NCBI RefSeq assembly: GCF_003363135.1
Contig: NZ_QRBB01000001.1
Span: forward strand, 2,689,169-2,753,168
Direction: 5' to 3'
DNA: 64,000 bases
DNA from: Alteriqipengyuania lutimaris
GTDB taxonomy: Bacteria; Pseudomonadota; Alphaproteobacteria; Sphingomonadales; Sphingomonadaceae
The stretch's first letter is position 1. Each line of letters starts with the position of its first letter. Of the stretch, positions 1 through 14,732 are shown piece by piece. The position numbers were made by a program, and so were the translations under genes. Under the pieces are notes generated by a model. The model saw nothing but the letters and a program-made list of their open reading frames with translations, was not told the DNA's origin and searched no databases.

Positions 1-480
1 GACCGCGTAGATAAGCACGGAGGAGTAGCGGAACATGCGCTCTGCCGCAGCTGTGCCAAGGCTGACCACCGCGATGATAAGTGTCAGCAGCAGCCCCGTG
101 CCGATCAGTGTCGGCCAGCCGAACAGGGCCGTGCCGATCTCACCCGCAGCCGCCGCGATCACCGCGATCACGAGCACCATGAACAGGACGTAGGCGATTT
201 CGAACAGGATCCACCCGGGCCCCAGCAGCTCGGCGAAGAAACCGCGATAATCATTCGCCCGTACGATGCGGGCAAATTCGAAGGTGACGGCGCACACGAT
301 GCTCCAGATCGCCATCGCGAGAAGCAGGCCGAGCAGGCCGCCCAGCGGGCCGCTGCCCACGAAAAACTCGGCGATCTCGCGCCCGGTGGCATAGCCGCCC
401 CCGATGACGACCGCCTTGAACGCGAGCCCCGGCAGGACCAGCCGCCGGAAGACCCCGTTCGAGGCGGCCGCATCGCTCAT
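1..480 (-). CDS. YkvI-like integral membrane protein, N-terminal part (runs off the window)
   Basis: The reading frame starts at ATG 480 and stays open to position 1, so about 160 N-terminal residues are visible and the C-terminus is missing. The start overlaps the stop of dgcN in an ATGA junction, so the two genes are probably translationally coupled. The N-terminus carries a glycine-rich GGGYATGRE motif followed by FFVGSGPLGG, the pattern of the YkvI family of uncharacterised membrane proteins (APC-like fold). At least three hydrophobic segments follow, near residues 37-55, 83-105 and 115-135. Family function is unknown. Its place behind a TonB receptor and dgcN suggests inner-membrane transport of glutamate, N-acetylglutamate or a related product, which is an inference only. 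Confidence 0.7.
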   Translation of the reverse strand, partial: MSDAAASNGVFRRLVLPGLAFKAVVIGGGYATGREIAEFFVGSGPLGGLLGLLLAMAIWSIVCAVTFEFARIVRANDYRGFFAELLGPGWILFEIAYVLFMVLVIAVIAAAAGEIGTALFGWPTLIGTGLLLTLIIAVVSLGTAAAERMFRYSSVLIYAV

Positions 481-1595
481 TCGGCGAGGCAGCTTTCGAC
501 GAGGGTGTCGAAGGACTCGCCGCCCCGGATCGGGTCGGCGACGGGCATTCCCAGCCGGGCGGTTTCGCGCGCCAGCAGATCGTTCGCCTCATCGGGGCCG
601 AGCGTCGAGGTGTTGAGCGATACGCCTGCGCAGCGGATCGCCGGATTGGTCCTGCCGCCGAGCCTGATCGTCAGTTCGGCCAGCTCCTCGATCTCCGGCA
701 GCGGGAAATCCGGGTGGCCGAGCACGTGCCGGCGCGCAGGATCGTGGCAGATAACGAACACGTCGGGCTGGCTACCATGCAGCAGCGCCATGGAGACGCC
801 TGAATATGCCGGGTGATACAGCGATCCCTGCCCTTCGACGATGTCCCAGTGATCGGCCGCGTTATCGGGAGACAGGAGCTCAGCCGCGCCAGCGGCGAAG
901 TCAGCGACCACCGAATCGAGCGCGATGCCGGCCCCTGCAATCAGGATACCGGTCTGCCCGGTCGCGCGGAAGTCGCTGTCCACCCCGCGCGCGGCGAGCG
1001 CTCTCGCAATGGAGAGTGCCGTGTATTTCTTGCCCAGCGCGCAATCCGTGCCCACCGTCAGGAGGCGTCTGCCACTGCGCTTGCGCCCCGTGGCGACCGG
1101 AAGATCGGCCGGAGGGGTCCGGATGTCCACCAGACGCTGCCCGTATTTCTCGGCAGCCGCGCGCATCCCCGGAAGGTCGGCAAGCCTCGCATGCATTCCA
1201 CTCACGATGTCGAGCCCCGCCGCCAGCGCCTCTTCCAGTGCAGGCATCCAATCCGGCGCGATCCGGCCGCCCGAATTTGCGATACCGATCACCATCGACT
1301 TCGCGCCCCGCTCCGCCGCTTCGGCAGGCGAGAGGCGGGTCAGCCCGGTGCTGACGGTCGCCCCGGGAAGGACGGATTCGCCAAGGCACTTGTCGCCCGC
1401 CCAGTCGCGAAGGCCAAAGGCGGTCTTGGCATAACCCGCCTCCGTGCAGTCGCCGAGGAAGAGAAGGTATGGCGTGCGCAAGGCGCCGACGTCGTCGCCC
1501 GTCGTATCCTCCGGACGAGACGGCGCGCCTGCGTCATCTTCGTCGGCAGAGGCCCGGGATGCCAGCGCCACTGCGCCGCCCTTGCTATCCATCAT
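477..1595 (-). CDS. dgcN: DgcN, D-glutamate N-acetyltransferase (DUF1611 family)
   Basis: This 372-residue protein matches the DUF1611 family, now known as DgcN, which acetylates D-glutamate so that DgcA can racemise it to N-acetyl-L-glutamate. The sequence has the N-terminal YLLFLGDCTEAGYAKTA stretch (about residues 43-59) and a P-loop-like GTDCALGKKYTA segment (about 182-193), both typical of the family. A longer upstream extension of the frame lies inside the TonB receptor gene in another frame, so I chose the start MMDSKGG at 1595. Its ATG overlaps the receptor stop in a TGATG junction. A second ATG follows at 1592. dgcA lies 4 kb away in the companion operon. The first 35 residues are acidic and low-complexity and may be poorly conserved. 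Confidence 0.85.
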   Translation of the reverse strand: MMDSKGGAVALASRASADEDDAGAPSRPEDTTGDDVGALRTPYLLFLGDCTEAGYAKTAFGLRDWAGDKCLGESVLPGATVSTGLTRLSPAEAAERGAKSMVIGIANSGGRIAPDWMPALEEALAAGLDIVSGMHARLADLPGMRAAAEKYGQRLVDIRTPPADLPVATGRKRSGRRLLTVGTDCALGKKYTALSIARALAARGVDSDFRATGQTGILIAGAGIALDSVVADFAAGAAELLSPDNAADHWDIVEGQGSLYHPAYSGVSMALLHGSQPDVFVICHDPARRHVLGHPDFPLPEIEELAELTIRLGGRTNPAIRCAGVSLNTSTLGPDEANDLLARETARLGMPVADPIRGGESFDTLVESCLAE

Positions 1596-3925
1596 CAGAA
1601 GCTGGCTGCGGCTGTGACACCGAAGGTCCGTGGACGGATCGGCGATGCGGAGAGCAGCGTGCCGGGGCGTTCGCCCAAGCCACCCAGGGCGGTCAGTCCA
1701 CGAGAATTCGTCACGTTCGTGGCGTAAGCGGTGATGCTGAAGCTGTCGAACGCCACCCCGGCGCGCAAATCGACCTTCTCGTATCCGTCGACTTGCAGCC
1801 TGCGCCCGAACAGCGAGCGATAGGTCGAGTCGAACCCGCCCGCCTGGTCGCTCACCAGCCGTGCATCGCCTCCGACGAAAGCCGTCGCGCCACTGCCGAG
1901 GGCCCATTCGTAATCGACGCTGAGTGTCGCGGTCAGCTCGGGCGTAAAGGGCAGCTGATCGCCCTCCAGCCCGCCGGTTACCGGCGGCGTATCCTCGGTC
2001 AGTTCGGCATTGTTGTAGGCACCATTGATCGCCAGCGTGAAGCCGTCCGCAGGACGCACGGTCGCGGTGAGTTCGGCACCGTAGACGCGCGCCCCCTCGC
2101 CATTGTCGTTCGCGCCCACCGGACCGATCGCGGTGTCGAAGGCCGCGAAAATCAGGATGTCGTCCCAGTCGAGATAATAGATCGCACCATCCACGCTGAA
2201 AGTCCGGTCGATCGTCTCGCCGCGGAAGCCGACCTCGTAGCTCACAACGGTGTCCGCATCGTACTGGACCGGGAAGTCGGCGCCGGCACCCGGCGGCACG
2301 ACGTTCGGTCCGCCCGGACGATAGCCCTTGGCGACGCGCGCATAGATCGAGCTGAAGTCGCTCAGCTCGTATCGTGTATCCGCCGACCAGGTGACGACGT
2401 CTTCGCTCGATTCACCCTCGGTGATGTTGGGCGAAGGCAGGCCCTGCAGCGGCTGGAAGGCACCGCGTTCGGTCTGGATCACGGTCTGATCGTTCCGGCT
2501 GTATCGCACGCCCCCGCCGACTTTCCAGCGCGGGGTCAGCTCGAAACCGACATTGGCGAAGGCCGCGACCTCTTCGTAGGTCGAATCCAAGTTGAGGACG
2601 AGCAGTTCGGGAAAGCCGAGGACGGCCGGATCGAACAGCACGCCGGTATCCTGCACGAAGGGCACGAGCGTCTGTTCGATCTTCACCGTCTCGTCGGTGT
2701 AATAGCCGCCGATCTGCCATTCGAACGGACCGCCTTCATTGGAAGACAGGCGCAGTTCCTGCGTGAATTTTTCCTGGTTGAGCGGCGCAGCGAGAAACAC
2801 GCCCACGTCATCCGTCCGTCCACCGAACGACTGATAGACGAAGGTAACGGTCGGACCGAAACCGATCGTGTTGTCGGTCAGCTGCCGTTGATCGAGCTCG
2901 CCGAAGCTGGTGACCGAGGTGGCGGTCGCAAAGCCGAGATCGAGATCGATCGTTCCGTTGTAGAGCCGGTAATCGACATCGTTGTTTTCCGGATAGAACT
3001 CCGTCCGCACGAACCCGTCGACGGGATCGCCGGTGTTGGGGTCGGTCTGGACCGGATCGCCGGTGACGGGATCCGCATCGTAGGAACTGGGCGAGCCGGC
3101 GCGGATATTCTGCGCGATCGCGGTCAGGCGGACCGAGAATGCGGACGTCGGTTCGAACAAAGCCGAAATCCGTCCACCATAGATCTCCGCCTCGTCGATC
3201 TCTTCCTCGAAGCTGCGGCCGACCGCGTCGACGAAACCCGCCTCCTTGCGATAGAAGCCGCTGGCGCGCACCGCGAGCGTATCGCCGATGGGCACGTTGA
3301 CGACGCCGTTCGCGCTCCATCCCGTACCGCCGCCATCGACCGTTTCGACACCGGCCTTCGCGCGGCCCTCGAATTCGCCGAGCTGGGGCGGGGTGGTGAC
3401 GAAGCGGATCACGCCGCCAAGCGCATTCGACCCATACAAAGTGCCCTGCGGCCCGCGCAGCACCTCCACCCGTTGCAGATCGAAAGTGTCGAAGTCGCCG
3501 GCAAGGACCGCAGCATTGCCGAGGCTGGAGCTGGAGCCGAACGGCGTGTCGTCCACATAGATCGCAACGGTCGAACCGACCGATCCGGTATTGACGCCGC
3601 GCAGGATCACGCGCGTCTCTCCGGGGTTGCTCTGCGTCAGGCTGAGGCTGGGGACCAGTTCGACATAGTCGGTGAAGCTGTCGGCCTGCTGGCGCTCCAG
3701 CGTCTCTTCGCTCACCACGCTGATCGACTGCGGAACCTCGCTGAGCGCCTGGGTGCGCTTCTGCCCGGTGACGATGATCACCTCGCCGCGATCGGCACGG
3801 ACTGGTTGCTCGACCTCGTCGTCCTGCCCGTCCGTCTGCGCGATCGCAGCTGCGGGCATTGTCATGGCAAGGACGGCTACGCCTGCGGCAAGAGTGGCCC
3901 GGCTCGAAAATCTGGCTTTTGTCAT
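1595..3925 (-). CDS. TonB-dependent outer-membrane receptor of the D-glutamate/peptide regulon
   Basis: A 776-residue TonB-dependent receptor that imports a ligand through the outer membrane using TonB energy. It begins with a signal peptide (MTKARFSSRATLAAG to a cleavage near AAAIAQ), then a TonB-box region with VIIVTGQKR, a plug domain with EVLRGPQGTLYGSNALGG, and a beta-barrel ending in phenylalanine (AASF). An upstream ATG at 3946 would add seven residues; I prefer 3925 because the signal peptide is cleaner. It is the first gene of a unit with dgcN and the YkvI-like gene, and the operator at 4000-4032 lies just upstream. The substrate is not visible in sequence. Context suggests a D-glutamate-containing peptide or muropeptide, which is inference. 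Confidence 0.9.
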   Translation of the reverse strand: MTKARFSSRATLAAGVAVLAMTMPAAAIAQTDGQDDEVEQPVRADRGEVIIVTGQKRTQALSEVPQSISVVSEETLERQQADSFTDYVELVPSLSLTQSNPGETRVILRGVNTGSVGSTVAIYVDDTPFGSSSSLGNAAVLAGDFDTFDLQRVEVLRGPQGTLYGSNALGGVIRFVTTPPQLGEFEGRAKAGVETVDGGGTGWSANGVVNVPIGDTLAVRASGFYRKEAGFVDAVGRSFEEEIDEAEIYGGRISALFEPTSAFSVRLTAIAQNIRAGSPSSYDADPVTGDPVQTDPNTGDPVDGFVRTEFYPENNDVDYRLYNGTIDLDLGFATATSVTSFGELDQRQLTDNTIGFGPTVTFVYQSFGGRTDDVGVFLAAPLNQEKFTQELRLSSNEGGPFEWQIGGYYTDETVKIEQTLVPFVQDTGVLFDPAVLGFPELLVLNLDSTYEEVAAFANVGFELTPRWKVGGGVRYSRNDQTVIQTERGAFQPLQGLPSPNITEGESSEDVVTWSADTRYELSDFSSIYARVAKGYRPGGPNVVPPGAGADFPVQYDADTVVSYEVGFRGETIDRTFSVDGAIYYLDWDDILIFAAFDTAIGPVGANDNGEGARVYGAELTATVRPADGFTLAINGAYNNAELTEDTPPVTGGLEGDQLPFTPELTATLSVDYEWALGSGATAFVGGDARLVSDQAGGFDSTYRSLFGRRLQVDGYEKVDLRAGVAFDSFSITAYATNVTNSRGLTALGGLGERPGTLLSASPIRPRTFGVTAAASF

Positions 3926-3999
3926 ACCCCGTGTCCCTTCTGACAATTTGCCGCCGGAGACGCCTGAACCCGACTCCAGAGGCTGCTTATTTTCTTATC

Positions 4000-4032
4000 A
4001 GGACAATAATGTCCTTGTAAGAGAATTGTCAA
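4000..4032 (-). promoter_or_regulatory. Promoter with palindromic operator upstream of the TonB receptor-dgcN unit
   Basis: Read on the minus strand, a TTGACA -35 box (4032-4027) is followed after 11 bp by a perfect palindrome, AGGACA-N4-TGTCCT (4000-4015), where the -10 region should fall. The box sits over the last codons of the transporter gene. The same arrangement with the same 11-bp spacing occurs at 8458-8490, and the flanking GATTTGACAATT is shared. This fits a repressor operator; the adjacent XRE-cupin protein is the natural candidate. Confidence 0.7.
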
Positions 4033-5369
4033 ATCCCGGCTGTCGACCCCACCTTCGTGTCCGGAACCTGCTCGGAAGAGCCGAAACGCGCGTCGAAAAC
4101 CCGCCGGGCGGGCGCATCCAGCAGCCGCAGGACGATGGCTGCGGCGACCGCGATCGCGGCCAGTAGGCCGAAGTAGATCGATGGCGAGATTTCGCTCCAG
4201 AAGCTCCCTACGAAACCCCCGGCGAGGCTGCCGGTGAAGATCGCGAAGAACCAGCTGGCGACGGTGCTCGCACCGAGCCGCTGCGGAGCGAGGCGTGCGA
4301 AGATTCCCAAGCCATTGGGCAGGATGTAGAGTTCGCCCGTGGTCAGGATCAGGAAGAAGGCGACCAGCCAGATCCAGCTCGCCTGGCCATCCTGCTGGAT
4401 GCCGGCGACGAAGGCGAGCAGCACGTAGGCACCGGCCACGACCAGCGCGCCGATCGCCATCTTCTGCAGAGGGGAATGCTCGGTCCCCGCCTCCGCCTGC
4501 CGCCGCCAGCGGGCGAGCAGGAACGGGGTGAGCAGAATGACGATCATCGGGTTGAGAGACTGGAACCAGGTCATCGGTATCTCGAAGGCGAACGCGGTCC
4601 GGTCCACCCCTTCGTTCGCCCACAGGGCGACCGTGTTGCCCACCTGCTCGTAGGCGCTGCGAAACAGGGTGACGGCAAGAAGCAGTGCGCCCAGCAGCAT
4701 CAGCGTTGCGCGGTCGAAACCCTGCCAGGTTCCGCCCTCCTCCGCTTCGACAGCGGCTGGTTCGCGGGTCTCGGGCGGCAGGTATTTCCCGCCCAGCAGG
4801 TAGATCGTCAGGCCGATGACCATCCCGATGCCCGCTGCACCGAAACCGTAGTGCCAGCCGTAGAATTCCCCGAGCGTTCCGCAGATCAGCGGTGCGAGAA
4901 AGCCGCCGATATTCACGCCGACATAATAGATGTTGTAGGCCCACGGCCTGCGCGGGTCGTCCGCAGCATAGAGATCGTTGATCTGGCTCGGCAGGCTGGG
5001 GAGGAAGAAGCCGTTGCCCAAGGCGATCGTGCCGAGGGCAATGTAGAGCATCGGCTCGAAGGCCATCAGGAAGTGGCCCAGCGCCATGATCGTGCCGCCC
5101 AGGATCACCGCGCGCCGCTTGCCCAGCCAGCGATCGGCGATGATCCCGCCGAAGATCGGCGTGAAGTAGGCGAGCGCGGTGTAGGTGCCGTAGATGTAGG
5201 ACGACATGCCCTGCTCGATCAGCAGCTCGATCGTCATGTAATAGACGAGCAGCGCGCGCATGCCGTAGTAGGAGAACTGCTCCCACATATTGGTGAGGAA
5301 CAGGACGGTCAGGCCGCGCGGCTGGCCGAACCAGGTCTTCTCGCTTCCCGGAGCCAGGGCTGTCGTCAC
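4029..5369 (-). CDS. POT/PTR-family proton-coupled oligopeptide transporter
   Basis: A 446-residue inner-membrane transporter with about 12-14 hydrophobic segments, of the POT (PTR2) branch of the major facilitator superfamily, which imports di- and tripeptides with protons. The YYGMRALLVYYM segment and the FGGIIADRWLGKRRAI-like loop are family hallmarks. The start is a GTG at 5369 that overlaps the dgcA stop (GTGA); an upstream extension lies within dgcA. In canonical POTs helix 1 carries ExxER. Here the equivalent is N27-M-W-E30-Q31, so the first glutamate and the arginine are replaced. Its place next to dgcA and a serine hydrolase suggests it moves D-glutamate-containing peptides or their products into the cytoplasm. 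Confidence 0.88.
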   Translation of the reverse strand: MTTALAPGSEKTWFGQPRGLTVLFLTNMWEQFSYYGMRALLVYYMTIELLIEQGMSSYIYGTYTALAYFTPIFGGIIADRWLGKRRAVILGGTIMALGHFLMAFEPMLYIALGTIALGNGFFLPSLPSQINDLYAADDPRRPWAYNIYYVGVNIGGFLAPLICGTLGEFYGWHYGFGAAGIGMVIGLTIYLLGGKYLPPETREPAAVEAEEGGTWQGFDRATLMLLGALLLAVTLFRSAYEQVGNTVALWANEGVDRTAFAFEIPMTWFQSLNPMIVILLTPFLLARWRRQAEAGTEHSPLQKMAIGALVVAGAYVLLAFVAGIQQDGQASWIWLVAFFLILTTGELYILPNGLGIFARLAPQRLGASTVASWFFAIFTGSLAGGFVGSFWSEISPSIYFGLLAAIAVAAAIVLRLLDAPARRVFDARFGSSEQVPDTKVGSTAGI

Positions 5370-6364
5370 GCGACGTAGCCCCACACGTCCTGGCCGCAAC
5401 TGACCATGCCGTCTTCATAGTGCAGCGACGGTTCGCGGTCTTTCGCGAGGAAGGTCGGTCCGTCCAGATCGACGTAGTCGCACAGCTGAGCGAGGATATA
5501 GGCGGGCGCCATAGCGAGGCTGGAGCCGACCATGTTGCCGACCATGACCTGGAGCCCGTGCTGCCGGCACAGGCGCGCGATTCTCAGGGCTTCGGTCAGC
5601 CCGCCGCACTTGTCGAGCTTGATATTGAAGACGGAGAACCTGCCTGCCAGCGCTTCCACATCGGAACTGGTCAGCGCGCTTTCGTCGGCAGCGAGCGGGA
5701 TCGGACACTCGAAACCTTCCAGGTCGCCCTCGCGGCCGCGTGCCAGCGGCTGTTCGAGCAGCGATACCCTGCACTCGGCGAGTGCGGAGACGAGAGGGTC
5801 CAGCTCCCCGAGCGCGAAACCCTGGTTCGCGTCGACCATCAGCCAGACGTCCCCCCGCGCCTCCCGGATCGCGCGCACGCGCGCAATGTCGAGAGCGAGA
5901 TCGCCTGTCAGCTTGATCTTGATCGCCTTGGCACTGCGGTAACGGCTTGCCCCGGCCGCCATCGCCTCCGGCGTGTCCGCGCCGAGCGTAAAGGTCGTGA
6001 CGACCGGCAGCGGCGCATCGATCCCCGCCATTTGCCAGGTGGGCGTGGCGGTGCGGCGCGCCTCCAGTTCCCACAGTGCGCAGTCGATCGCGTTGCGCCC
6101 GCCCCCCGCGGGCATGGCATCGAGCAGACCCTTGCGATCGATCCCGGCCTCGATGACGCCACGCGCCGCTTCGATATCGGCCATCATGTTATCGGCATCG
6201 TCGCCGAGGTAATAGACGCCCCCTCCCTCGCCGCGCCCTTCGTGCGCGCCGTCGGAAAGCGTCGCCACGACCACCTCGCAGTTCTCGAACACGTGGCCCG
6301 AGATGCGAAAGGGTGCCGCGAGGCGCAGCGTCTCGCGCCGCGCCTCGAGCTTCAGGCCCGGCAT
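5366..6364 (-). CDS. dgcA: DgcA, N-acetyl-D-glutamate racemase (enolase-superfamily dipeptide epimerase)
   Basis: A 332-residue enolase-superfamily protein of the muconate-lactonising/dipeptide-epimerase subgroup. It has the general-base motif KIK (K149, K151), three metal ligands in the VDAN (D178), LLEQP (E204) and AADES (D227) motifs, and the second base lysine in the NIKLDKCGG segment near 249-252. With DgcN it forms the pathway D-Glu to N-acetyl-D-Glu to N-acetyl-L-Glu. The sequence alone cannot exclude L-Ala-D/L-Glu epimerase (YcjG/YkfB) activity, which would also fit a peptide-use locus. The presence of DgcN favours DgcA. The start at 6364 overlaps the hydrolase stop (TGATG); a longer frame extends into that gene and is rejected. 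Confidence 0.85.
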   Translation of the reverse strand: MPGLKLEARRETLRLAAPFRISGHVFENCEVVVATLSDGAHEGRGEGGGVYYLGDDADNMMADIEAARGVIEAGIDRKGLLDAMPAGGGRNAIDCALWELEARRTATPTWQMAGIDAPLPVVTTFTLGADTPEAMAAGASRYRSAKAIKIKLTGDLALDIARVRAIREARGDVWLMVDANQGFALGELDPLVSALAECRVSLLEQPLARGREGDLEGFECPIPLAADESALTSSDVEALAGRFSVFNIKLDKCGGLTEALRIARLCRQHGLQVMVGNMVGSSLAMAPAYILAQLCDYVDLDGPTFLAKDREPSLHYEDGMVSCGQDVWGYVA

Positions 6365-8379
6365 CAGTAGTTGGTCCCGAACCCGATCAGGTGGAAGGCG
6401 AGGCCCATCCAGACGATCACCAGTCCGGCGAGCACCAGAAGGATGCTCCAGACCTTGGCGGTCCACGCGCGCTTGCCGGTCCAGACCTGCCAGAGATACC
6501 AGCAGAACACCGCCAGCCCCCCGAAGAACACCACGAACGTGGCGATCTGCAGGACGATGACGACCGTGTCGAAGGCTCCGCCGAGATTGGTCAGGTCGCC
6601 GAACATCAGGGTGATCGTGACCGCCCACCCCACAAGAACGAGGAGGATGGCCAGCGCGGCGATCCGCGAGAGGCGATAGCCGAGCAGTTCGCGCCCCTCA
6701 TATCCCAGCGTCCCCGAATAATGCCGCCGGACCAGTGCACGCGTCGGCCAGAGCAGCGCCGTGAGCAACAGGATGAGAAGGCTCGCGTAGAGCAGCGGCA
6801 TCAGCAGCGAGGAGTCCTTGTACCACGGGGCCCGCTCGAACACCGTGAAGGCGGACATGATCGACAGGCTGAACCGCGTCACCTCCCCATCGACAACCTC
6901 GGCACCCAGCTTCTGGTGGCTGTTGAGGTCCTCCCACAGGAAAGGCTCCACCTCGACCCAGTTGGCCGGGCGTCCGGTCAGGCCCATGCCCGGCGGCAGC
7001 ACGAGGTCCCCGTCCGCGTCCACGCCGACAGTGGTCTGGCCGAGAAGCTGGGTAAGATTGAGGAAGGTCGAATCCGCACGGCGCGAGGGCACCCAGTTGC
7101 CCGCCAGCATCTGCGCATGTTCCTTGGCGGTTTCGGGATCGACCCGGCTCGTTTCCGGCTCTCCTGGGAAATAGCGATCAGCGAATTCGGTGAACAGGTT
7201 GATCCGAACGCCATTGACCGCGCCCGCTTCGCCGCCGCTGTTGAAGGACGCATAAAGGCCCACGCCCTCGTCCAGAAACAGGTGAAGCGAAGTATGAAAG
7301 CCCTCGGTGTCGCCGAGGTGGGCGATCACGTCCTGGCCGTTGATGTCGGTTTCGAAGAAGCCGAGCAGCATCCGGTCGAGGCCGGGGATCATGTCGGTCG
7401 CGGTGGTATGCATCTCGCGCGCGGTCTCGGCCTCGAGGATGCGGTTGCCGTCGAGCTCGCCATTGTTGAGGTGCGCCAGCATGAAGCGCGCCATGTCCGT
7501 TCCGGTGGAGGTCAGCGACCCGGCCGGCGAAGGCCCGACGATCTCGAACGGCACCGGCTCGCCCGATGCCGTGCCGTAACCGGTGGCGAGGTTGCCGCGC
7601 ATGCTTTCCGGAACCGGCTGGCGGAACGTCGAATCGTTCATGCCCAGCGGATCGAAGATGTGCCGCTCCACATAATCGTAGAACGGCTCGCCCGAGACGC
7701 GTTCGACGATATAGCCGGCGAGCGCGGTGCCGTAGTTCGAATAGGCGGGCGTCTCGCCAGCGTCGAAGATGCGCTCGGGCACCCACTGCTTGAGCAGTTC
7801 GTCGTAGGGAGGGATCGTGTCGCGATCGTGCCCGATAAGATCCTTCACCTGTTCCTCGAACCCGGCGGTATGGGTCATCAGCTGACGCATCGTTACAGGT
7901 TTGCCGTTGCGTTCCGGAATTTCGAAATCGAGATACTGGTTCACGTCCGCGTCGAGATCGATGCGACCCTGTTCGACCTGCTGCATCACCGCGGTCCAGG
8001 TCACCAGTTTGGAAACCGATCCGGGCCGGAACAGGGTGCGTCCCGGGTCGACGGGGGTGCGATCCTCCACGTCGGCGAGGCCGAAGCCGCGCTGGGTCAG
8101 GATCTCGCCGTCCTTGACCACCACGACCACCGCACCGGCGATATCGCCGTCGCCCAATGCATAGGGCATGTACCCCTCGAGCCAGGTGTCGACATCGGTC
8201 TTCGTGAGATCAGCCGCGCCGTCCGGCCGGTCGCTCGCCTGGGCTGCGGCGGCCTGTTCGGCTTCCGGCGTCCCAGGGAGATTGGGGTCCGGCGTCTGCG
8301 CGAACCCGCTTCCGCCAATCCACAGCAGAAATGCGCCCATTGCTGCAATCGCGGCGAGCATCTCTTTCTTCAAACCCAT
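6364..8379 (-). CDS. Serine beta-lactamase/D-aminopeptidase-like hydrolase with C-terminal membrane domain
   Basis: A 671-residue exported serine hydrolase of the class C beta-lactamase/penicillin-binding-protein fold (Pfam Beta-lactamase). A signal peptide spans residues 1-28. The catalytic SVSK tetrad (S121, K124) and the YSN motif (Y213-N215) are intact; a third motif may be HLGDTEGF. After about residue 530 come four predicted transmembrane segments, so the catalytic part is likely tethered to the inner membrane and faces the periplasm. The fold includes D-aminopeptidases, D,D-peptidases and esterases. Next to dgcA and a peptide transporter, a peptidase releasing D-residues is plausible but not proven. 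It is the first gene of the hydrolase-dgcA-transporter unit; RBS GGGGGGACA precedes ATG 8379. Confidence 0.85.
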   Translation of the reverse strand: MGLKKEMLAAIAAMGAFLLWIGGSGFAQTPDPNLPGTPEAEQAAAAQASDRPDGAADLTKTDVDTWLEGYMPYALGDGDIAGAVVVVVKDGEILTQRGFGLADVEDRTPVDPGRTLFRPGSVSKLVTWTAVMQQVEQGRIDLDADVNQYLDFEIPERNGKPVTMRQLMTHTAGFEEQVKDLIGHDRDTIPPYDELLKQWVPERIFDAGETPAYSNYGTALAGYIVERVSGEPFYDYVERHIFDPLGMNDSTFRQPVPESMRGNLATGYGTASGEPVPFEIVGPSPAGSLTSTGTDMARFMLAHLNNGELDGNRILEAETAREMHTTATDMIPGLDRMLLGFFETDINGQDVIAHLGDTEGFHTSLHLFLDEGVGLYASFNSGGEAGAVNGVRINLFTEFADRYFPGEPETSRVDPETAKEHAQMLAGNWVPSRRADSTFLNLTQLLGQTTVGVDADGDLVLPPGMGLTGRPANWVEVEPFLWEDLNSHQKLGAEVVDGEVTRFSLSIMSAFTVFERAPWYKDSSLLMPLLYASLLILLLTALLWPTRALVRRHYSGTLGYEGRELLGYRLSRIAALAILLVLVGWAVTITLMFGDLTNLGGAFDTVVIVLQIATFVVFFGGLAVFCWYLWQVWTGKRAWTAKVWSILLVLAGLVIVWMGLAFHLIGFGTNY

Positions 8380-8457
8380 GTTGTCCCCCCGCCTGTGCGG
8401 CTTGTTGCTTCGATCTGGCTTCGTCGCTAGCTTGGACGAATATTAGTTGGCGTGATC

Positions 8458-8490
8458 AGGACATAATGATCCTAATTAGAAAATTGTCAA
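8458..8490 (-). promoter_or_regulatory. Promoter with operator upstream of the serine hydrolase-dgcA-transporter unit
   Basis: On the minus strand a TTGACA box (8490-8485) is followed after 11 bp by AGGATCATTATGTCCT (8473-8458), an imperfect copy of the palindrome at 4000-4015. The surrounding sequence (GATTTGACAATT) also matches the first site. It lies between the divergent hydrolase (start 8379) and the XRE-cupin gene (start 8516), so one bound protein could control both directions. Confidence 0.7.
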
Positions 8491-8515
8491 ATCGGGGCAG
8501 GCAGGAGGGGCGCGC

Positions 8516-9175
8516 GTGACGGAGCAGCACCAGACACTCGGCAGCCTCATGCGCGGCCTGCGCAAGCGCAACGGCTGGACTCTCAAGCGGATGAGCGAGG
8601 AAAGCGGCATCCCCGTCTCGACGCTTTCCAAGGTGGAGCATGACCGGCTCACGCTCACCTATGACAAGCTGCTCCAGTTGAGCCAGCGCCTGGGAATCCG
8701 CCTGTCGGAACTGTTCGCCGAGCCGGAGGACCGGGGCGAGCGGTCGATCACCGCGCGTCGCAGCATCGGACGGCTCGACCGCGCGGTGCGGGTTACGACC
8801 GACAATTACGACTATTACTACATGTGCCCCGAACTGCGGAACAAGCGCATGATCCCGATCGTGACGACGATCCGTGCGCGCACGGTCGAGGAATTCGGCA
8901 AACTCGTCCGCCATTCGGGCGAGGAATATATCCACGTGATCGAAGGCAGCATCGTGGTCCACACTGAATTCTATGATTCGGTCACGCTCGAAAAGGGCGA
9001 GGGAATCTATATCGATTCCGACATGGGCCACGCCTACGTCGTGGCCGAGGGGTGCGACGAAGCCCATGTTCTGGGCATCTGCGCGAGCCGCGAGCAGGAC
9101 TTCGCCAAATCGCTCATGACCATCCACGGCGACGACGCGCCCGAGCATGATGGCAGTGCTAGCGGCACGGGATAG
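8516..9175 (+). CDS. XRE-family transcriptional regulator with C-terminal cupin sensor
   Basis: A 219-residue regulator with an N-terminal XRE helix-turn-helix (about residues 8-65, with SGIPVSTLSKVEHDRLTLTYDKL) and a C-terminal cupin-like small-molecule domain (about 105-200, with GEEYIHVIEGSIVVHTEFYDSV and DSDMGHAY). Proteins of this layout commonly sense amino-acid or sugar metabolites. The GTG start at 8516 has the strong ribosome site AGGAGGGG at 8503-8510. It is transcribed divergently from the hydrolase-dgcA-transporter unit, with the operator between them. I infer that it controls both minus-strand units of the D-glutamate regulon. Confidence 0.85.
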   Translation: MTEQHQTLGSLMRGLRKRNGWTLKRMSEESGIPVSTLSKVEHDRLTLTYDKLLQLSQRLGIRLSELFAEPEDRGERSITARRSIGRLDRAVRVTTDNYDYYYMCPELRNKRMIPIVTTIRARTVEEFGKLVRHSGEEYIHVIEGSIVVHTEFYDSVTLEKGEGIYIDSDMGHAYVVAEGCDEAHVLGICASREQDFAKSLMTIHGDDAPEHDGSASGTG

Positions 9176-9305
9176 GGACTGGCTCCGACCGGGCACCCGC
9201 CTTCTCCGTCAAAAGGCGAAATGCGGAAAGCCGAGGGCTGCAATCAGGTCTGAACCGCCGGACCGCGCGAGCGCCATTCCCATTGAATCTCGCCAGCAAG
9301 GTTCT

Positions 9306-9319
9306 ATACCTAAAGGTAT
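9306..9319 (+). promoter_or_regulatory. Palindromic operator over the tetR start codon
   Basis: The perfect inverted repeat ATACCT-AA-AGGTAT ends within the ATG of the TetR-type gene. A related 14-mer (ATACTTATCGGTAC, 9988-10001; 10 of 14 positions identical) lies in the promoter region of the RND operon. This fits autorepression together with control of the efflux genes. Confidence 0.55.
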
Positions 9320-9917
9320 GGAAAAGCTTGCAACAAGAGGTCGCCCGCGGGAATTCGATACCGACGTCGCACTTGCCGAAGCCCTGCGCCTGTTCTGGCA
9401 GAAGGGGTACGAGGGCACCTCGCTCAGCGACCTGACCGAAGCGATGGGGATCACCCGGCCGAGCCTCTATGCCGCGTTCGGCAACAAGGAGACGCTTTTT
9501 CGCCACGCGCTCGATCTCTACGAGAAGGACAAGCTCGCCTATATCGGCGAAGCAGTCGAGGCGCCCACTGCACGCGGCGTTGCCGAAACGCTTTTGCTAG
9601 GATCGGTCGACGTGGCAACCGGCGGCGAGTGCCGCGGCTGCATGGGCGTGATCTCGATGGTCGGCTGCCAGAGCGTGGAGCCTTCGATCCGCGACGACGT
9701 GAACGCCCGCGCCCAATCCGCAAAACAGCTGATCGTCGACCGGATGCAGCGCGCGATCAACGCCGGCGAATTCGCCGTGCCGACCAGTGCGGAGGCGATC
9801 ACGCGCTATCTGCTCGCGCTGATGCAGGGTATCTCGGTGCAGGCCCAATCCGGAGCGACCCGGAGCGAGCTGATGGAAGTTGCTGATTCTGCGCTGCTTT
9901 CGTGGCCGTCGCGCTGA
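9318..9917 (+). CDS. TetR/AcrR-family repressor, likely of the adjacent RND efflux operon
   Basis: A 199-residue TetR-type regulator. The N-terminal helix-turn-helix (about residues 8-60) contains GRPREFDTDVALAEAL and GITRPSLYAAFGNKETLF, the usual signature. The C-terminal ligand domain contains a cysteine-rich GECRGCMGVISMVGC stretch (about residues 104-118), common in one TetR subgroup. The frame extends upstream to 9147 without a stop, but the start MEKLATRGRP at 9318 fits the family and places a palindrome across it. It lies just upstream of, and co-directional with, the RND efflux operon, which has a similar palindrome in its promoter. Confidence 0.85.
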   Translation: MEKLATRGRPREFDTDVALAEALRLFWQKGYEGTSLSDLTEAMGITRPSLYAAFGNKETLFRHALDLYEKDKLAYIGEAVEAPTARGVAETLLLGSVDVATGGECRGCMGVISMVGCQSVEPSIRDDVNARAQSAKQLIVDRMQRAINAGEFAVPTSAEAITRYLLALMQGISVQAQSGATRSELMEVADSALLSWPSR

Positions 9918-9920
9918 CGG

Positions 9921-9940
9921 TTTTTCGCATCTGCGAAAAA
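9921..9940 (+). terminator. Hairpin after the tetR gene
   Basis: TTTTTCGCA-TC-TGCGAAAAA forms a perfect 9-bp stem three bases after the tetR stop codon. The stem is AT-rich at its base and no T-run follows on the plus strand, so it may be a weak terminator or a protein-binding site. Confidence 0.4.
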
Positions 9941-9966
9941 ATTACCGGGCGGTACAGAAAATCCGC

Positions 9967-10001
9967 TTGACCTGAACCCCAGATTACATACTTATCGGTA
10001 C
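9967..10001 (+). promoter_or_regulatory. Candidate promoter and TetR operator of the RND operon
   Basis: TTGACC (9967-9972) is followed after 16 bp by TACTTA (9989-9994), a plausible -35/-10 pair. The -10 region overlaps ATACTTATCGGTAC (9988-10001), which resembles the palindrome at the tetR start. About 140 bp of leader then precede the adaptor gene. Confidence 0.45.
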
Positions 10002-10140
10002 AGATAGCTGTGCAGCGGTGATCGCTGCGCGGTGGCCGGGTGCCGCGGGCCCCGGTTCGTCCGAATTGTGCGCGTCCTGCTTCGAAAGCTCTCGCTTTTG
10101 GAGGCGGTAGCGCTTGTCTCGACAAGGTCAGGAATACCCG

Positions 10141-11469
10141 ATGCTCGACACCCCTCTCGACCGCTACGCCGATCACGCTACCGAGGAACGCCGTGCGCAG
10201 CAGGATGCCCAAAATGTCGACGAGGCAGGCTCGCCGGAGCTTGCCGATCACGAGCAATCACATGGGCTCATGCGCCACCGGCGCCTGTGGATCGGCCTCG
10301 CTCTGCTGGTAGCGATCCTTGGTGCGTGGTGGCTCCTCGGCGGCAAGCCTTCCGCCCCCGCCGCTGCGGCACCGCCCGCAGTGACCGCAGCGCTTCCGCT
10401 CCAGAAAGAAATCACCGAGTGGGACGAATTCGTGGGCCGCTTCCAAGCCAGCCGCAGCGTCGAGGTCCGCCCGCAGGTTTCGGGCGAGATCACGCGCATC
10501 CATTTCACCGACGGCCAGTTCGTCCGCAAGGGCGCGCCGCTGTTCACCATCGACGCACGAACCTATCGCGCCGCGCTCGCCGAGGCGCAGGCTGAGGTCG
10601 CGCGGGCCGAGAGTGCGCTTGCGCTGTCGCGCGACAATCTGAGCCGTGCGCAGCGGCTGGTCACTGACGATGCGATCGCCGCGACCGAGATCGACCGGCT
10701 GCAGGCCGAGGTGCGCAATAATGCCGCCACGCTTGCTGCGGCGAAGGCGCGGGTGAACTCGCGAGCGCTCGACGTCGGCTTCACCACCGTCCGCGCGCCG
10801 ATTTCGGGGCAGATCTCCGACCGCCGGATCGACGCGGGCAACCTCGTCTCGGGCGGGGGTGGCAGTGCCGCCACGCTGCTGACCACGATCAACGCGGTCG
10901 ACCCGGTCTATTTCGAATTCACCGGCTCCGAGGCGCTGTTCCTCAAGGCGCGCCGCGAAGGGCTCGACAAGGGCACGCCGGTCGAGATCCGCCTGCAGGA
11001 CGAGGCCGACTATCGCTGGCACGGCACGCTCGACTTCACCGATAACGGGCTCGACAGCGAGTCCGGCACGATCCGCGCGCGTGCGGTCGTGCGCAATGGC
11101 GAAGGCTTCCTTGCGCCCGGGCTGTTCGGCCGAATGCGGCTGGCGACCGGCGGCACGCGGCAGGCGCTGCTGGTGCCCGATACCGCCGTCACCACCGACC
11201 AGACGCGCAAGCTGCTGCTGGTGGTCGGCAAGGACGGCACCGTCGCCACCCGCGCGGTCGAGCTCGGGCCATTGGTCGGTAATCTGCGCGTGATCGAGAA
11301 GGGTCTGAAACCCACCGACCGCGTGATCATCGAGGGCACCCAGATGGCAATGCCCGGGCAGAAGGTCTCCGCGCAGAAGGGCCGGATTTCGGCACCCCCG
11401 GCGGAGGCGACCGCGCCTCCCGAGACGCCCGCCTCGATCCCAGCCTCCTCCGCCAGCCTCGCCAGCTAA
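10141..11469 (+). CDS. RND efflux periplasmic adaptor (membrane fusion protein)
   Basis: A 442-residue periplasmic adaptor that links the RND pump to the outer-membrane channel. A 48-residue cytoplasmic tail precedes one transmembrane helix (about 49-68, LWIGLALLVAILGAWWLL). A biotinyl-lipoyl-like half motif (SVEVRPQVSGEITRIHF), a coiled-coil hairpin rich in Ala, Glu and Arg (about 140-210), a second lipoyl half (VRAPISGQISDRRIDAGNLV) and a beta-barrel domain follow. There is no lipobox, so it is membrane-anchored. A TTG at 10114 could add nine residues; ATG 10141 with AGGA upstream is preferred. It is the first gene of a four-gene operon. Confidence 0.9.
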   Translation: MLDTPLDRYADHATEERRAQQDAQNVDEAGSPELADHEQSHGLMRHRRLWIGLALLVAILGAWWLLGGKPSAPAAAAPPAVTAALPLQKEITEWDEFVGRFQASRSVEVRPQVSGEITRIHFTDGQFVRKGAPLFTIDARTYRAALAEAQAEVARAESALALSRDNLSRAQRLVTDDAIAATEIDRLQAEVRNNAATLAAAKARVNSRALDVGFTTVRAPISGQISDRRIDAGNLVSGGGGSAATLLTTINAVDPVYFEFTGSEALFLKARREGLDKGTPVEIRLQDEADYRWHGTLDFTDNGLDSESGTIRARAVVRNGEGFLAPGLFGRMRLATGGTRQALLVPDTAVTTDQTRKLLLVVGKDGTVATRAVELGPLVGNLRVIEKGLKPTDRVIIEGTQMAMPGQKVSAQKGRISAPPAEATAPPETPASIPASSASLAS

Positions 11470-11543
11470 GGCGCGCCCGCGCGCAGCCTCACGCCCGAAT
11501 TACGCCCCCAATTCACGCCCCAGACCACGCCCGGAGTGCGTCC

Positions 11544-14500
11544 ATGAACATTTCCCGCTTCTTCATCGATCGGCCGATCTTCGCCTGCGTCCTCGCGGTG
11601 CTGGTGACGCTGGTCGGCGCGATTTCCTACTTCTTCCTGCCGGTCAGCCAGTATCCCGACATCGTGCCGCCGACGGTGACCGTCACCGCGGTCTATCCCG
11701 GTGCCTCGGCCGAGACGGTGGCCGATACCGTCGCCAATCCGATCGAGCAGGAGATCAACGGCGTCGACGGTATGCTCTACCAGTCGAGCGAATCCACCGG
11801 CGACGGGCGGATGACGATCACCGTCACCTTCGCGCCTGGCACCGACCTCGACGAAGCGCAGGTGCTGGTCCAGAACCGCGTCGCAATCGCCGAGGCGCGG
11901 CTGCCCGAAGAGGTCCAGCGGCTCGGCATCGTCACCCGCAAGACCACGCCCGACTTCCTGATGGTGGTCAATCTGGTATCGCCCGACGGTTCGCTCGACC
12001 GCGAATATATCTCGAACTACGCACAGACGCGGATCAAGGACCGTGTCGCCCGGCTCGAAGGGGTCGGCGACGTACAGATGTTCGGCCAGCGCGAGCTGGC
12101 GATGCGCGTGTGGATCGATCCGGGCCGTGCCGCCGCGCTAGGCCTGACGGGCAGCGATGTCGTGCGTGCGCTGAGGGCGCAGAACGTGCAGGTCGCCGCC
12201 GGCACGCTCGGCCAGCAGCCGAGCCCCGATTCCGCATTCCAGCTCAATGTCGAGACGCAGGGCCGCTTCACCAGCCCGGACCAGTTCGGCCAGGTGGTGA
12301 TCCGCACCGACGAACAGGGCCGCCAGATCCACGTCAGCGACGTGGCACGGGTCGAGATCGGCGCGGCGGACTACGCCACATCGGCCTACCTCAACGACAC
12401 GGATTCGGTGATCCTGCCAGTGTTCCAGAAGCCCGGCTCCAACGCGCTCGCCGCGGCGGAAGGCGTCAAGGCGACGATGGACGAACTGGCGGCCGATTTC
12501 CCGCAGGGCCTCGAATACCGGATCGTCTACAACCCGACCGAATTCATCGCCGAAAGCATCGACGCGGTGCTGCACACATTGCTCGAGGCGGTGGTGCTGG
12601 TGGTGCTGGTGATCATCGTCTTCCTGCAGAAGGCGCGCGCCTCGATCATTCCCGTGCTCGCGATCCCGATCTCGCTCGTCGGCACCTTCGCCGTGCTCGC
12701 GATGCTCGGCTATTCGCTCAACAACCTCTCGCTGTTCGGGCTGGTTCTCGCGATCGGGATCGTGGTCGACGACGCGATCGTGGTGGTCGAGAATGTCGAG
12801 CGCAATCTGGAGGCTGGCTACAGCCCGCTGGAAGCCGCGCGGCGATCGATGGACGAGGTCGGCAGCGCGCTGATCGCGATCGTGCTGGTACTGTGCGCGG
12901 TGTTCGTGCCCACGCTGTTCATGGGCGGCCTCTCGGGCGAGTTCTACAAGCAGTTTGCGGTCACGATTTCCGCGGCGACCATCATCTCGCTGTTCGTGTC
13001 GCTCACGCTGTCGCCCGCGCTGTCCGCGCTGCTTCTGCGGCCGCACGAGCACCTGCCCGAGGACGCGCCGCGCTGGCGCAAGGCGATCGAGCGGGCGGGC
13101 GACAGGTTCAACGCCGGGTTCGAGCGCTTCAGCGACAGCTATGCGCGCCTGACCGGGCGGCTGGTGGCGATGCCCCGGCGCATGATGCTCGCCTATGGCG
13201 TGCTGATCGGCCTCACCGGGTTCGCATTGGTTATGACCCCCACCGGCTTCGTACCGCAGCAGGACCAGGGCTATTTCGTCTCGGTCATCCAGCTTCCCCC
13301 GGGCTCGTCCACGACCCGCACCGATGCGGTGATGAAGAAGGTCGCCGAGCGTGTGCTGCCGATCGAGGGGATCACGGGCACGGTCATGCTGTCCGGCTTC
13401 GACGGGACGACGCAGACCCAGTCCGCCAGCTCGGCGGCCGCCTACTGGGTGCTCGACGATTTCCATCACCGTGAGGGCAACGGCCAGTCGATCGACGAAC
13501 TGATCGCCAAGGCGCAGGCCGCCACCGCCGACATCAACGAAGCGCGCCTGATGATCGTCAAGCCGCCCGTCATCCAGGGGATCGGCTCCGCCGGCGGGTT
13601 CCGCATGATGCTGAAGGACGATTCCGGGCAGGGCTACCGCCAGATGCAGGAAGTGGCCAATGCCGTCATCGCGCAGGCCAACCAGCAGGAAGGGCTGGCC
13701 GGGGTCTATACCTTCTTCGACACCGGCACCCCGCGCGTGAAGACCGATATCGACCGCGAAAAGGCGCAGATGCTGAGCGTTTCGCCGAGCGACATCTTCG
13801 ACACGCTGTCGGTCTATCTGGGCAGCGCCTTTATCAACGACTTCAACCTGCTCGGGCGGACCTATCGCGTCACCGCGCAGGCGGATGCGAGCTATCGCGA
13901 CGATGTCAGCGATATCGGCAATCTGTATGCCCGGTCCCGCAATGGAGCGATGGTGCCGCTGGGATCGGTTGCGACCGTGACCGACACAACCGGCCCGTAC
14001 CGCGTCAGCCGCTACAACCTCGCGCCCGCAGTGGCCATCGACGGCGACACCGCCCCGACGAGTTCGACCGGGCAATCGCTGGTGACGATGGAGAAGGTCG
14101 CAGCCGAAACCGTACCGCAGGGCTATTCGACCGAATGGACCGGCATCGCCTTCCAGCAGGCCAGCACCGGCAACACTGCGATCTACGTCTTCGGGCTCGC
14201 GGTGCTGCTCGTCTTCCTCGTGCTGGCGGCGCAGTACGAAAGCCTGATCATGCCGCTGGCGATCATCCTGATCGTGCCGATGTGCCTGCTGGCGGCGATG
14301 ATCGGGGTCAACCTGATGGGGATGGACAACAATGTCCTCACCCAGATCGGGCTGGTCGTGCTGATCGCGCTGTCCGCCAAGAACGCGATCCTGATCGTGG
14401 AATTCGCCCGCCAGGGTGAGGCGCTGCACGGGCTGTCGCCCATCGATGCCGCGATCGAGGCGGCGCGGACCCGTCTGCGGCCGATCCTGATGACGAGCTT

Positions 14501-14732
14501 CGCCTTCATCCTCGGCTCGGTCCCGCTGGTGATCGCGACCGGCGCGGGCGCGGAACTGCGCCAGGCGCTGGGCACGGCGGTGTGCTTCGGCATGCTTGGC
14601 GTGACCGGCTTCGGCCTGATCTTCACCCCCACTTTCTACGTCGTTTGCCGCGCTCTGGGCGACCGGCTCGCATCGCTGCGCGGTCCCAGCCGCCGTAGCG
14701 AGGCGAGCCCGGCGATGCAGCCGGCCGAATAG
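11544..14732 (+). CDS. RND multidrug efflux permease (HAE1 family, AcrB/MexF-like)
   Basis: A full-length 1062-residue hydrophobe/amphiphile efflux pump of the inner membrane that exports compounds using the proton gradient. It starts MNISRFFIDRPIFACVLAVLVTLVG, the usual first helix, and has twelve predicted transmembrane helices and two large periplasmic loops. The proton-relay aspartates are present in helix 4 (D409, D410 in GIVVDDAIVVVENV), and helix 10 has the expected SAKNAILIVEFA segment. RGPS-like terminal residues are short. It lies 74 bp after the adaptor and 11 bp before the outer-membrane factor. Substrates cannot be read from the sequence. Confidence 0.95.
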   Translation: MNISRFFIDRPIFACVLAVLVTLVGAISYFFLPVSQYPDIVPPTVTVTAVYPGASAETVADTVANPIEQEINGVDGMLYQSSESTGDGRMTITVTFAPGTDLDEAQVLVQNRVAIAEARLPEEVQRLGIVTRKTTPDFLMVVNLVSPDGSLDREYISNYAQTRIKDRVARLEGVGDVQMFGQRELAMRVWIDPGRAAALGLTGSDVVRALRAQNVQVAAGTLGQQPSPDSAFQLNVETQGRFTSPDQFGQVVIRTDEQGRQIHVSDVARVEIGAADYATSAYLNDTDSVILPVFQKPGSNALAAAEGVKATMDELAADFPQGLEYRIVYNPTEFIAESIDAVLHTLLEAVVLVVLVIIVFLQKARASIIPVLAIPISLVGTFAVLAMLGYSLNNLSLFGLVLAIGIVVDDAIVVVENVERNLEAGYSPLEAARRSMDEVGSALIAIVLVLCAVFVPTLFMGGLSGEFYKQFAVTISAATIISLFVSLTLSPALSALLLRPHEHLPEDAPRWRKAIERAGDRFNAGFERFSDSYARLTGRLVAMPRRMMLAYGVLIGLTGFALVMTPTGFVPQQDQGYFVSVIQLPPGSSTTRTDAVMKKVAERVLPIEGITGTVMLSGFDGTTQTQSASSAAAYWVLDDFHHREGNGQSIDELIAKAQAATADINEARLMIVKPPVIQGIGSAGGFRMMLKDDSGQGYRQMQEVANAVIAQANQQEGLAGVYTFFDTGTPRVKTDIDREKAQMLSVSPSDIFDTLSVYLGSAFINDFNLLGRTYRVTAQADASYRDDVSDIGNLYARSRNGAMVPLGSVATVTDTTGPYRVSRYNLAPAVAIDGDTAPTSSTGQSLVTMEKVAAETVPQGYSTEWTGIAFQQASTGNTAIYVFGLAVLLVFLVLAAQYESLIMPLAIILIVPMCLLAAMIGVNLMGMDNNVLTQIGLVVLIALSAKNAILIVEFARQGEALHGLSPIDAAIEAARTRLRPILMTSFAFILGSVPLVIATGAGAELRQALGTAVCFGMLGVTGFGLIFTPTFYVVCRALGDRLASLRGPSRRSEASPAMQPAE

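Follow-up and report, generated by a model that had tools for sequence, protein, structure and literature searches.

The genes at positions 1 to 9175 of a 64,000-nucleotide stretch of the Alteriqipengyuania lutimaris genome (the window) probably form a regulon for the utilization of peptides that is held off by a local XRE-cupin repressor, and in which a DgcN/DgcA-like enzyme pair appears to have been remodelled toward a side chain that is not a carboxylate. Between 8379 and 1 the order on the minus strand is S12 hydrolase, dgcA-like gene and POT transporter (one block), followed by TonB receptor, dgcN-like gene and ykvI-like gene (the other); adjacent genes inside each block abut or overlap by a few bases. 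The gene for the XRE-cupin protein is divergent from this series, with its start at 8516. Judged by sequence, a single composite operator, in two copies, covers the predicted promoters of both blocks and also directly precedes the repressor gene. In relatives operator and repressor are conserved together, even where the two are unlinked.

At both promoters TTGACA stands exactly 11 bp from a 16 bp element, as an earlier sequence-only reading of this DNA had it (minus strand; 4032-4027 and 4000-4015 at site 1, 8490-8485 and 8458-8473 at site 2). Promoter-operator 1 occupies 3990-4032. Promoter-operator 2, with the core TTTTCTAATTAGGA, occupies 8458-8490 and ends 25 bp from the divergent XRE-cupin gene. 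The -10-like hexamers, TATTGT (4008-4003) and CATTAT (8468-8463), lie inside the palindrome at both sites, so that the binding of a regulator should exclude RNA polymerase; the sequence is that of a dyad operator in the core promoter. The 16 bp element had been called a palindrome at both sites. This is correct for site 1, with arms AGGACA/TGTCCT, while site 2 is a poor palindrome with 4 bp arms (AGGA/TCCT). The two sites are the two best of three sigma-70-like promoters found in 1-9300, for which the shuffle average is 1.4.

In the whole 3.29 Mb genome the pattern AGGACANNANNNTCCT-N11-TGTCAA matches at the two known sites only, and the 33 bp form with up to three mismatches finds the same two places. 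A 26 bp form, again with up to three mismatches, has three matches in the window, all within the two sites, and none in 100 shuffles. The core with up to two mismatches occurs at six places in the genome, three at the known sites and three elsewhere, with one in the reversed control. At site 1 the core is present on both strands, on the plus strand at 3990-4015 without mismatch and on the minus strand at 4000-4025 with three. We note that these two cores (3990-4025) face each other across the palindrome, and that on the plus side no gene of the cluster has its start there. The 16 bp palindrome was rejected as the whole operator; the most conserved part of the operator in relatives is the left core TTYTCYNATYAGGA, on the TTGACA side. 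On these sequence comparisons the shared promoter-operator is real, and is longer than first described.

The 33 bp layout was sought in related genomes, where it is present before related clusters and tracks the XRE-cupin gene. The composite operator, TTGAC(A)-ATTYTCYNATYAGGA-N8-TCC, precedes such clusters in Sphingomonadales, Caulobacterales and Xanthomonadales. Among 150 distinct sites TTGAC is kept in 111, and the dyad centres are about 10 bp apart, a spacing that would be compatible with either two dimers or one. A TTGACAATTYTCYAATYAGGATCATTATGTCC-like motif learned upstream of XRE genes, the learning being seeded with both window sites, scores above 10 in 68 of 89 regions and in no shuffle. 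With a matrix trained on XRE-adjacent regions only, a further site is found upstream of another cluster gene in 42 of 77 loci, at 32 times the density elsewhere. At the low score of 13 the capped matrix matches shuffled DNA 26 times in 0.95 Mb, and therefore the analysis was confined to scores of at least 20 to 25. Matches of 28 to 35 are separated from the XRE gene by some 9 to 21 kb at L177:9532 (G163), L178:4126 (G284) and L176:19003 (G301); these precede further hydrolase or M19 genes, which are candidate distant members of the regulon.

The candidate repressor (8516-9175, plus strand), with orthologues in relatives, has an N-terminal Cro/C1-type helix-turn-helix (HTH_3, PF01381) and a C-terminal cupin (Cupin_2, PF07883), both above the Pfam cut-offs. 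The nearest NCBIfam model is PuuR, at 48.2 bits, below its cut-off of 211. A divergent cluster gene lies within 700 bp of the XRE gene in 69 of the 77 loci, and one more has another XRE gene. The exact 21 bp head of the motif is present in 29 of 298 genomes of the family. All 29 belong to the 62 genomes in which XRE gives a hit (E up to 1e-15, counting paralogues), and likewise to the 50 whose XRE orthologue has 56% identity or more; the head is absent from all 236 genomes without a hit (Fisher 2.6e-23, phylogeny not corrected). The strict 33 bp site is present in 17 of 50 genomes reached from other loci, each of them among the 34 in which a strong XRE orthologue is present (E below 1e-70; Fisher 2.4e-4). 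The two genome sets share at least three members.

Linkage accounts for only part of this co-occurrence. In six of six Stenotrophomonas genomes the sole XRE hit has a hydrolase gene and a dgcA-like gene as neighbours, and a site scoring 23-37 is present there. A second cluster, comprising a dgcA-like gene and a TonB receptor more than 300 kb away or on another contig, also has sites, found by the strict pattern in five genomes and by the matrix in the sixth. These sites are far from the regulator, and so neighbourhood alone fails to explain the link between site and XRE gene. We also considered 33 loci that have a dgcA-like gene and a POT gene and no XRE orthologue in the locus. Nine have a match above 20 (21.9 to 42.4), and in eight of these the genome has a strong XRE orthologue at another place. 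The remaining 24, of Dyella/Rhodanobacter type, have no match above 15.8. Retention of the genes without the palindrome, which had been named in advance as evidence against a shared operator, does occur; in none of these 24 loci is there an XRE orthologue of 56% identity or more, and in the 13 of their genomes that were searched none was found elsewhere. Taken with the co-occurrence, the unlinked sites suggest that one operator ties both blocks, as had been proposed, and that the XRE-cupin gene encodes the best candidate for its binder. By analogy we infer that the protein would repress through this operator.

XRE-cupin paralogues of about 40% identity lie by similar hydrolase clusters at L007:482-1159, L055:12404-13120 and L074:15688-16395, and these are possible sister regulons. 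L055 and L074, with paralogues of 40-43% identity, belong to the 24 loci without a site and have no operator match above 15.8. Their recognition segment is ENGK as against EHDR; ENGR is found in some site-bearing orthologues (L159), so this difference is only suggestive. L007 has two moderate operator matches (29.3 and 28.6), and a true XRE orthologue elsewhere in its genome.

The dgcN-like (DUF1611) gene lies at 477-1592 and the dgcA-like gene, encoding an epimerase or racemase of the enolase superfamily, at 5366-6364, both on the minus strand. Each product falls below the cut-off of the corresponding NCBIfam model, with 440.6 bits against 480 for DgcN (NF041892) and 371.1 against 400 for DgcA (NF042940). 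The latter also falls below that of the YcjG model NF011708 (237.3 bits, cut-off 343); its closest named relatives, at 89-91%, are from Citromicrobium. The same genome contains an adjacent dgcN-dgcA pair at G000:C2:381970-383972 (locus L187) that exceeds both cut-offs (DgcN 502.9 bits, DgcA 428.3 bits). A LysR gene precedes the pair and a sodium:dicarboxylate symporter follows, and an amidohydrolase and an amino-acid permease are nearby. This pair is likely to be the real D-glutamate pathway of the genome. The window copies are 44% (DgcA) and 48% (DgcN) identical to it.

In FastTree phylogenies six canonical DgcN form one clade (support 1.0), separate from the clade of the XRE loci, which contains their 36 proteins and seven whose loci have no XRE gene (0.95). 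The corresponding XRE-locus clade of DgcA comprises 36 proteins and nine others (0.98), and the canonical DgcA clade is unresolved from YcjG (0.38). Across the 298 genomes none of the 51 DgcN proteins above the cut-off is encoded within 15 kb of an XRE orthologue, and one is near a paralogue; of the 96 below it 51 are near an orthologue, ten near a paralogue only and 35 near neither. The form above the cut-off is also present in 18 of 44 genomes with the XRE-linked form. A DgcN gene is found in 69 of the 77 loci, and genes for TonB receptor, hydrolases, transporter and epimerase travel together in relatives, as the sequence-only reading had expected. Its proposal that dgcN and dgcA are split halves of a pathway from D-glutamate to N-acetyl-L-glutamate is not sustained, given the scores below the cut-offs, the separate C2 pair and altered substrate loops. 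By sequence, the window pair are paralogues of the D-glutamate pair in which those loops differ.

Counting from LEARR, positions 18, 21 and 47 of the DgcA fragment are R, R/K and R in seven of seven canonical DgcA and in YcjG. In 36 of 36 proteins from loci with an XRE orthologue they are G/S, F/I/M and Y/F, and none of these keeps a basic residue at any of the three. Two arginines present in six of six canonical DgcN are likewise lost in 36 of 36, with mostly F at window position 59 and A or V at 65. The DLDGP motif, catalytic lysines and metal ligands are kept in the window DgcA-like enzyme, which should therefore be active. Alignment shows that the epimerases 3q45 and 3jva, which we take to be hydrophobic-dipeptide enzymes, also lack the arginines. 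YcjG is described in PMC5808125 as narrow for glutamate at the C-terminus, so that residues common to YcjG and DgcA are reasonable candidates for ligands of the glutamate carboxylate. We infer a substrate that would lack a side-chain carboxylate; the regulon probably serves peptides with D-residues, not D-glutamate. For muropeptide or poly-gamma-glutamate as substrate no deciding evidence was found, although amidases and transglycosylases were not searched for.

S12 hydrolase 1 (6364-8379, minus strand; PF00144, beta-lactamase/penicillin-binding-protein-like) has SVSK, YSN and HLG motifs, an N-terminal hydrophobic segment and C-terminal transmembrane-like segments. Its stop is overlapped by the ATG start of dgcA, and the dgcA stop by the likely GTG start of the POT-family oligopeptide transporter (4029-5369, minus strand; PF00854). 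The transporter matches TIGR00924 at 293.3 bits, above the cut-off of 130.2. It has NMWEQFSYY in place of ExxERFxYY, which we take to be the expected POT motif, and the arginine of the motif is absent in all 19 proteins aligned from the 62 cluster POT proteins; proton coupling or substrate may thus differ. The TonB-dependent outer-membrane receptor (1595-3925, minus strand; PF00593, PF07715) is adjoined at its stop by the dgcN start. The ykvI-like gene (1-480, minus strand) is cut by the window edge, and encodes 372 amino acids in the genome. No sequence match to it was found in Pfam, NCBIfam or PDB, and it is placed by fold only, from the APC/LeuT fold of the L003 orthologue; sources annotate it as YkvI family membrane protein. 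In the genome contigs the operon continues past the edge with the rest of ykvI, S12 hydrolase 2 and an M19 dipeptidase. By eye, the dipeptidase has a lipobox-like lipoprotein signal at its N-terminus. Gene order, strands and both sites agree with the two minus-strand units originally described. Separate units are not established, since the POT stop codon and the -35 of site 1 overlap, and all three terminator-like sites found in 1-9300 are on the plus strand; it is equally likely that the genes form one long operon that has an internal promoter. After the XRE gene, 9147-14732 contains a TetR-type regulator and what by eye resemble genes for membrane-fusion and RND efflux proteins; this is apparently an efflux operon of its own.

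Relatives without a POT gene here have other peptidase-like genes downstream of such sites. L017:11026-12204 is a divergent M19 downstream of an operator-type site, and L116:6835-8124 is an amidohydrolase nearest to a Caulobacter Xaa-Pro dipeptidase model (375 bits, cut-off 500). L024:6686-8308, in the only Stenotrophomonas distal cluster that was annotated, is an amidohydrolase of PRK09061 type (206.7 bits, cut-off 340). At L108:4394-8417 the M19 gene is followed by a further TonB receptor and a PepSY_TM protein; these two may serve iron uptake and have no connection with the regulon.

In the proposed mechanism the XRE-cupin repressor would bind the operator as one or two dimers, blocking RNA polymerase, and would be released once its cupin domain senses a metabolite of the pathway. 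Peptides would cross the outer membrane through the TonB receptor and be cleaved in the periplasm by the two S12 hydrolases and the M19 dipeptidase; POT would import small peptides and YkvI amino acids. The DgcN-like enzyme would then acylate, and the DgcA-like enzyme epimerize, the D-residue, passing it to L-amino-acid metabolism.

Several points weigh against a repressor-controlled regulon with a remodelled pair. The full TTGACA is kept in only 90 of the 150 distinct sites. At a score of 25 no XRE-adjacent site is found in nine of the 77 loci that have an XRE orthologue; two of these score 22.7 and 24.0, and two have a site before a displaced hydrolase (L020, 34.3; L154, 20.6, weak). The ninth unlinked locus with a site, L016, has just a 39% paralogue in its genome. 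The Fisher tests ignore phylogeny, and site and XRE gene are mostly linked in the family set, so that co-occurrence is partly expected. Repression as the direction of control is taken from analogy. The role of the lost basic residues in binding glutamate is drawn from their sharing with YcjG and from known structures, and the canonical sets are small (six DgcN, seven DgcA). DgcA of Halieaceae type beside DgcN (L068 and L070) is also below the cut-off and without the basic residues, so the pocket change is wider than this regulon; 35 of the 96 DgcN below the cut-off are near no XRE gene, and thus the altered form is not exclusive to it.

An operator serving another regulator, and following the XRE gene merely because both belong to the same mobile gene cluster, would account for their closeness in most genomes with an exact match. 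This is very improbable in view of the six Stenotrophomonas genomes, whose second cluster bears sites while the only XRE hit is elsewhere, and of the 24 clusters that lack both XRE gene and site. The window pair could alternatively belong to a D-glutamate pathway, in which DgcN acetylates D-glutamate and DgcA racemizes it, under the same repressor with uptake and hydrolysis of D-glutamate muropeptides added, the C2 pair acting on free D-glutamate and the window pair on that derived from peptides. The nearest curated families are indeed DgcN and DgcA, DLDGP and both catalytic lysines are retained, and the best match of the L024 amidohydrolase is PRK09061, presumably a D-glutamate deacylase. Both window proteins are nevertheless below the cut-offs, the basic DgcA residues at 18, 21 and 47 and a DgcN arginine are replaced in 36 of 36, and the genome has a full pair with its own symporter; we regard this as unlikely.

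Somewhat less unlikely is that the DgcA-like enzyme epimerizes imported L,D-dipeptides with hydrophobic C-termini without any N-acyl intermediate, the DgcN-like protein acting on the freed amino acid or being idle. A POT transporter of dipeptide type in the operon and the absence of the arginines from 3q45 and 3jva would fit, as would the hydrophobic C-termini accepted by the Thermotoga maritima epimerase according to PMC13338154 and PMC5808125. Against it, the protein scores 371 bits with the NCBIfam DgcA model and 237 with dipeptide-epimerase models, and the presence of a DgcN gene in 69 of the 77 loci speaks for a step shared by the two enzymes. The regulon of remodelled enzymes proposed above can be taken further, to a second D-amino-acid pathway, not described before, in which the paired paralogues have jointly lost glutamate-binding arginines, and acylate and racemize a non-glutamate, probably hydrophobic, D-residue released from peptides, under one XRE-cupin repressor and a composite two-dimer operator common to alpha- and gammaproteobacteria. 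This stronger form is tentative, and we would not yet favour it.

The DgcN-DgcA D-glutamate pathway has reportedly been described in Pseudoalteromonas. As there, both enzyme homologues belong to one regulon; here, by contrast, they are below the cut-offs with replaced substrate loops, peptidases and a TonB receptor are added, the neighbouring regulator is XRE-cupin and not LysR, and a pair above the cut-offs lies elsewhere in the genome. Like the L-Ala-D/L-Glu epimerases YcjG and YkfB of muropeptide recycling, the window enzyme is an enolase-superfamily epimerase beside peptide hydrolases that keeps the catalytic lysines and DxD; unlike YcjG it lacks the basic loop residues common to YcjG and DgcA, and it is under the YcjG cut-off. 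PMC10845958 mentions the DgcN-DgcA pathway. XRE-cupin factors are presented in PMC7901475 as local inhibitors of neighbouring metabolic genes, with PsdR of Pseudomonas aeruginosa acting on those for small peptides. In PMC12724383, DbuR of P. putida represses a divergent operon for D-branched-chain amino acids, protecting 44 bp that include a 20 bp palindrome and cover the predicted -10. The present regulator resembles PsdR and DbuR in combining HTH and cupin and in its local target genes, the regulator proteins themselves not having been compared. It differs in the longer composite operator, which many genomes carry at two promoters or more, and in targets that include a TonB receptor, S12 and M19 hydrolases and DgcN/DgcA-like enzymes. 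The regulation is thus of a known kind; what is new is the composite operator at several promoters, the gene set from TonB receptor to cytosol and the remodelled pair, and no paper joining these was found among open PMC papers.

If this is correct, many proteins annotated as DgcN or DgcA in Sphingomonadales and Xanthomonadales would have been assigned the wrong substrate, and the DNA motif would allow the regulon to be found in other genomes. The C2 and window copies would provide, within one genome, a clean pair for studying a change in substrate choice. Peptides with D-residues are counted among the resistant organic matter of the sea in PMC10845958, and the organism would have a regulated system, running from outer membrane to cytosol, for using them.

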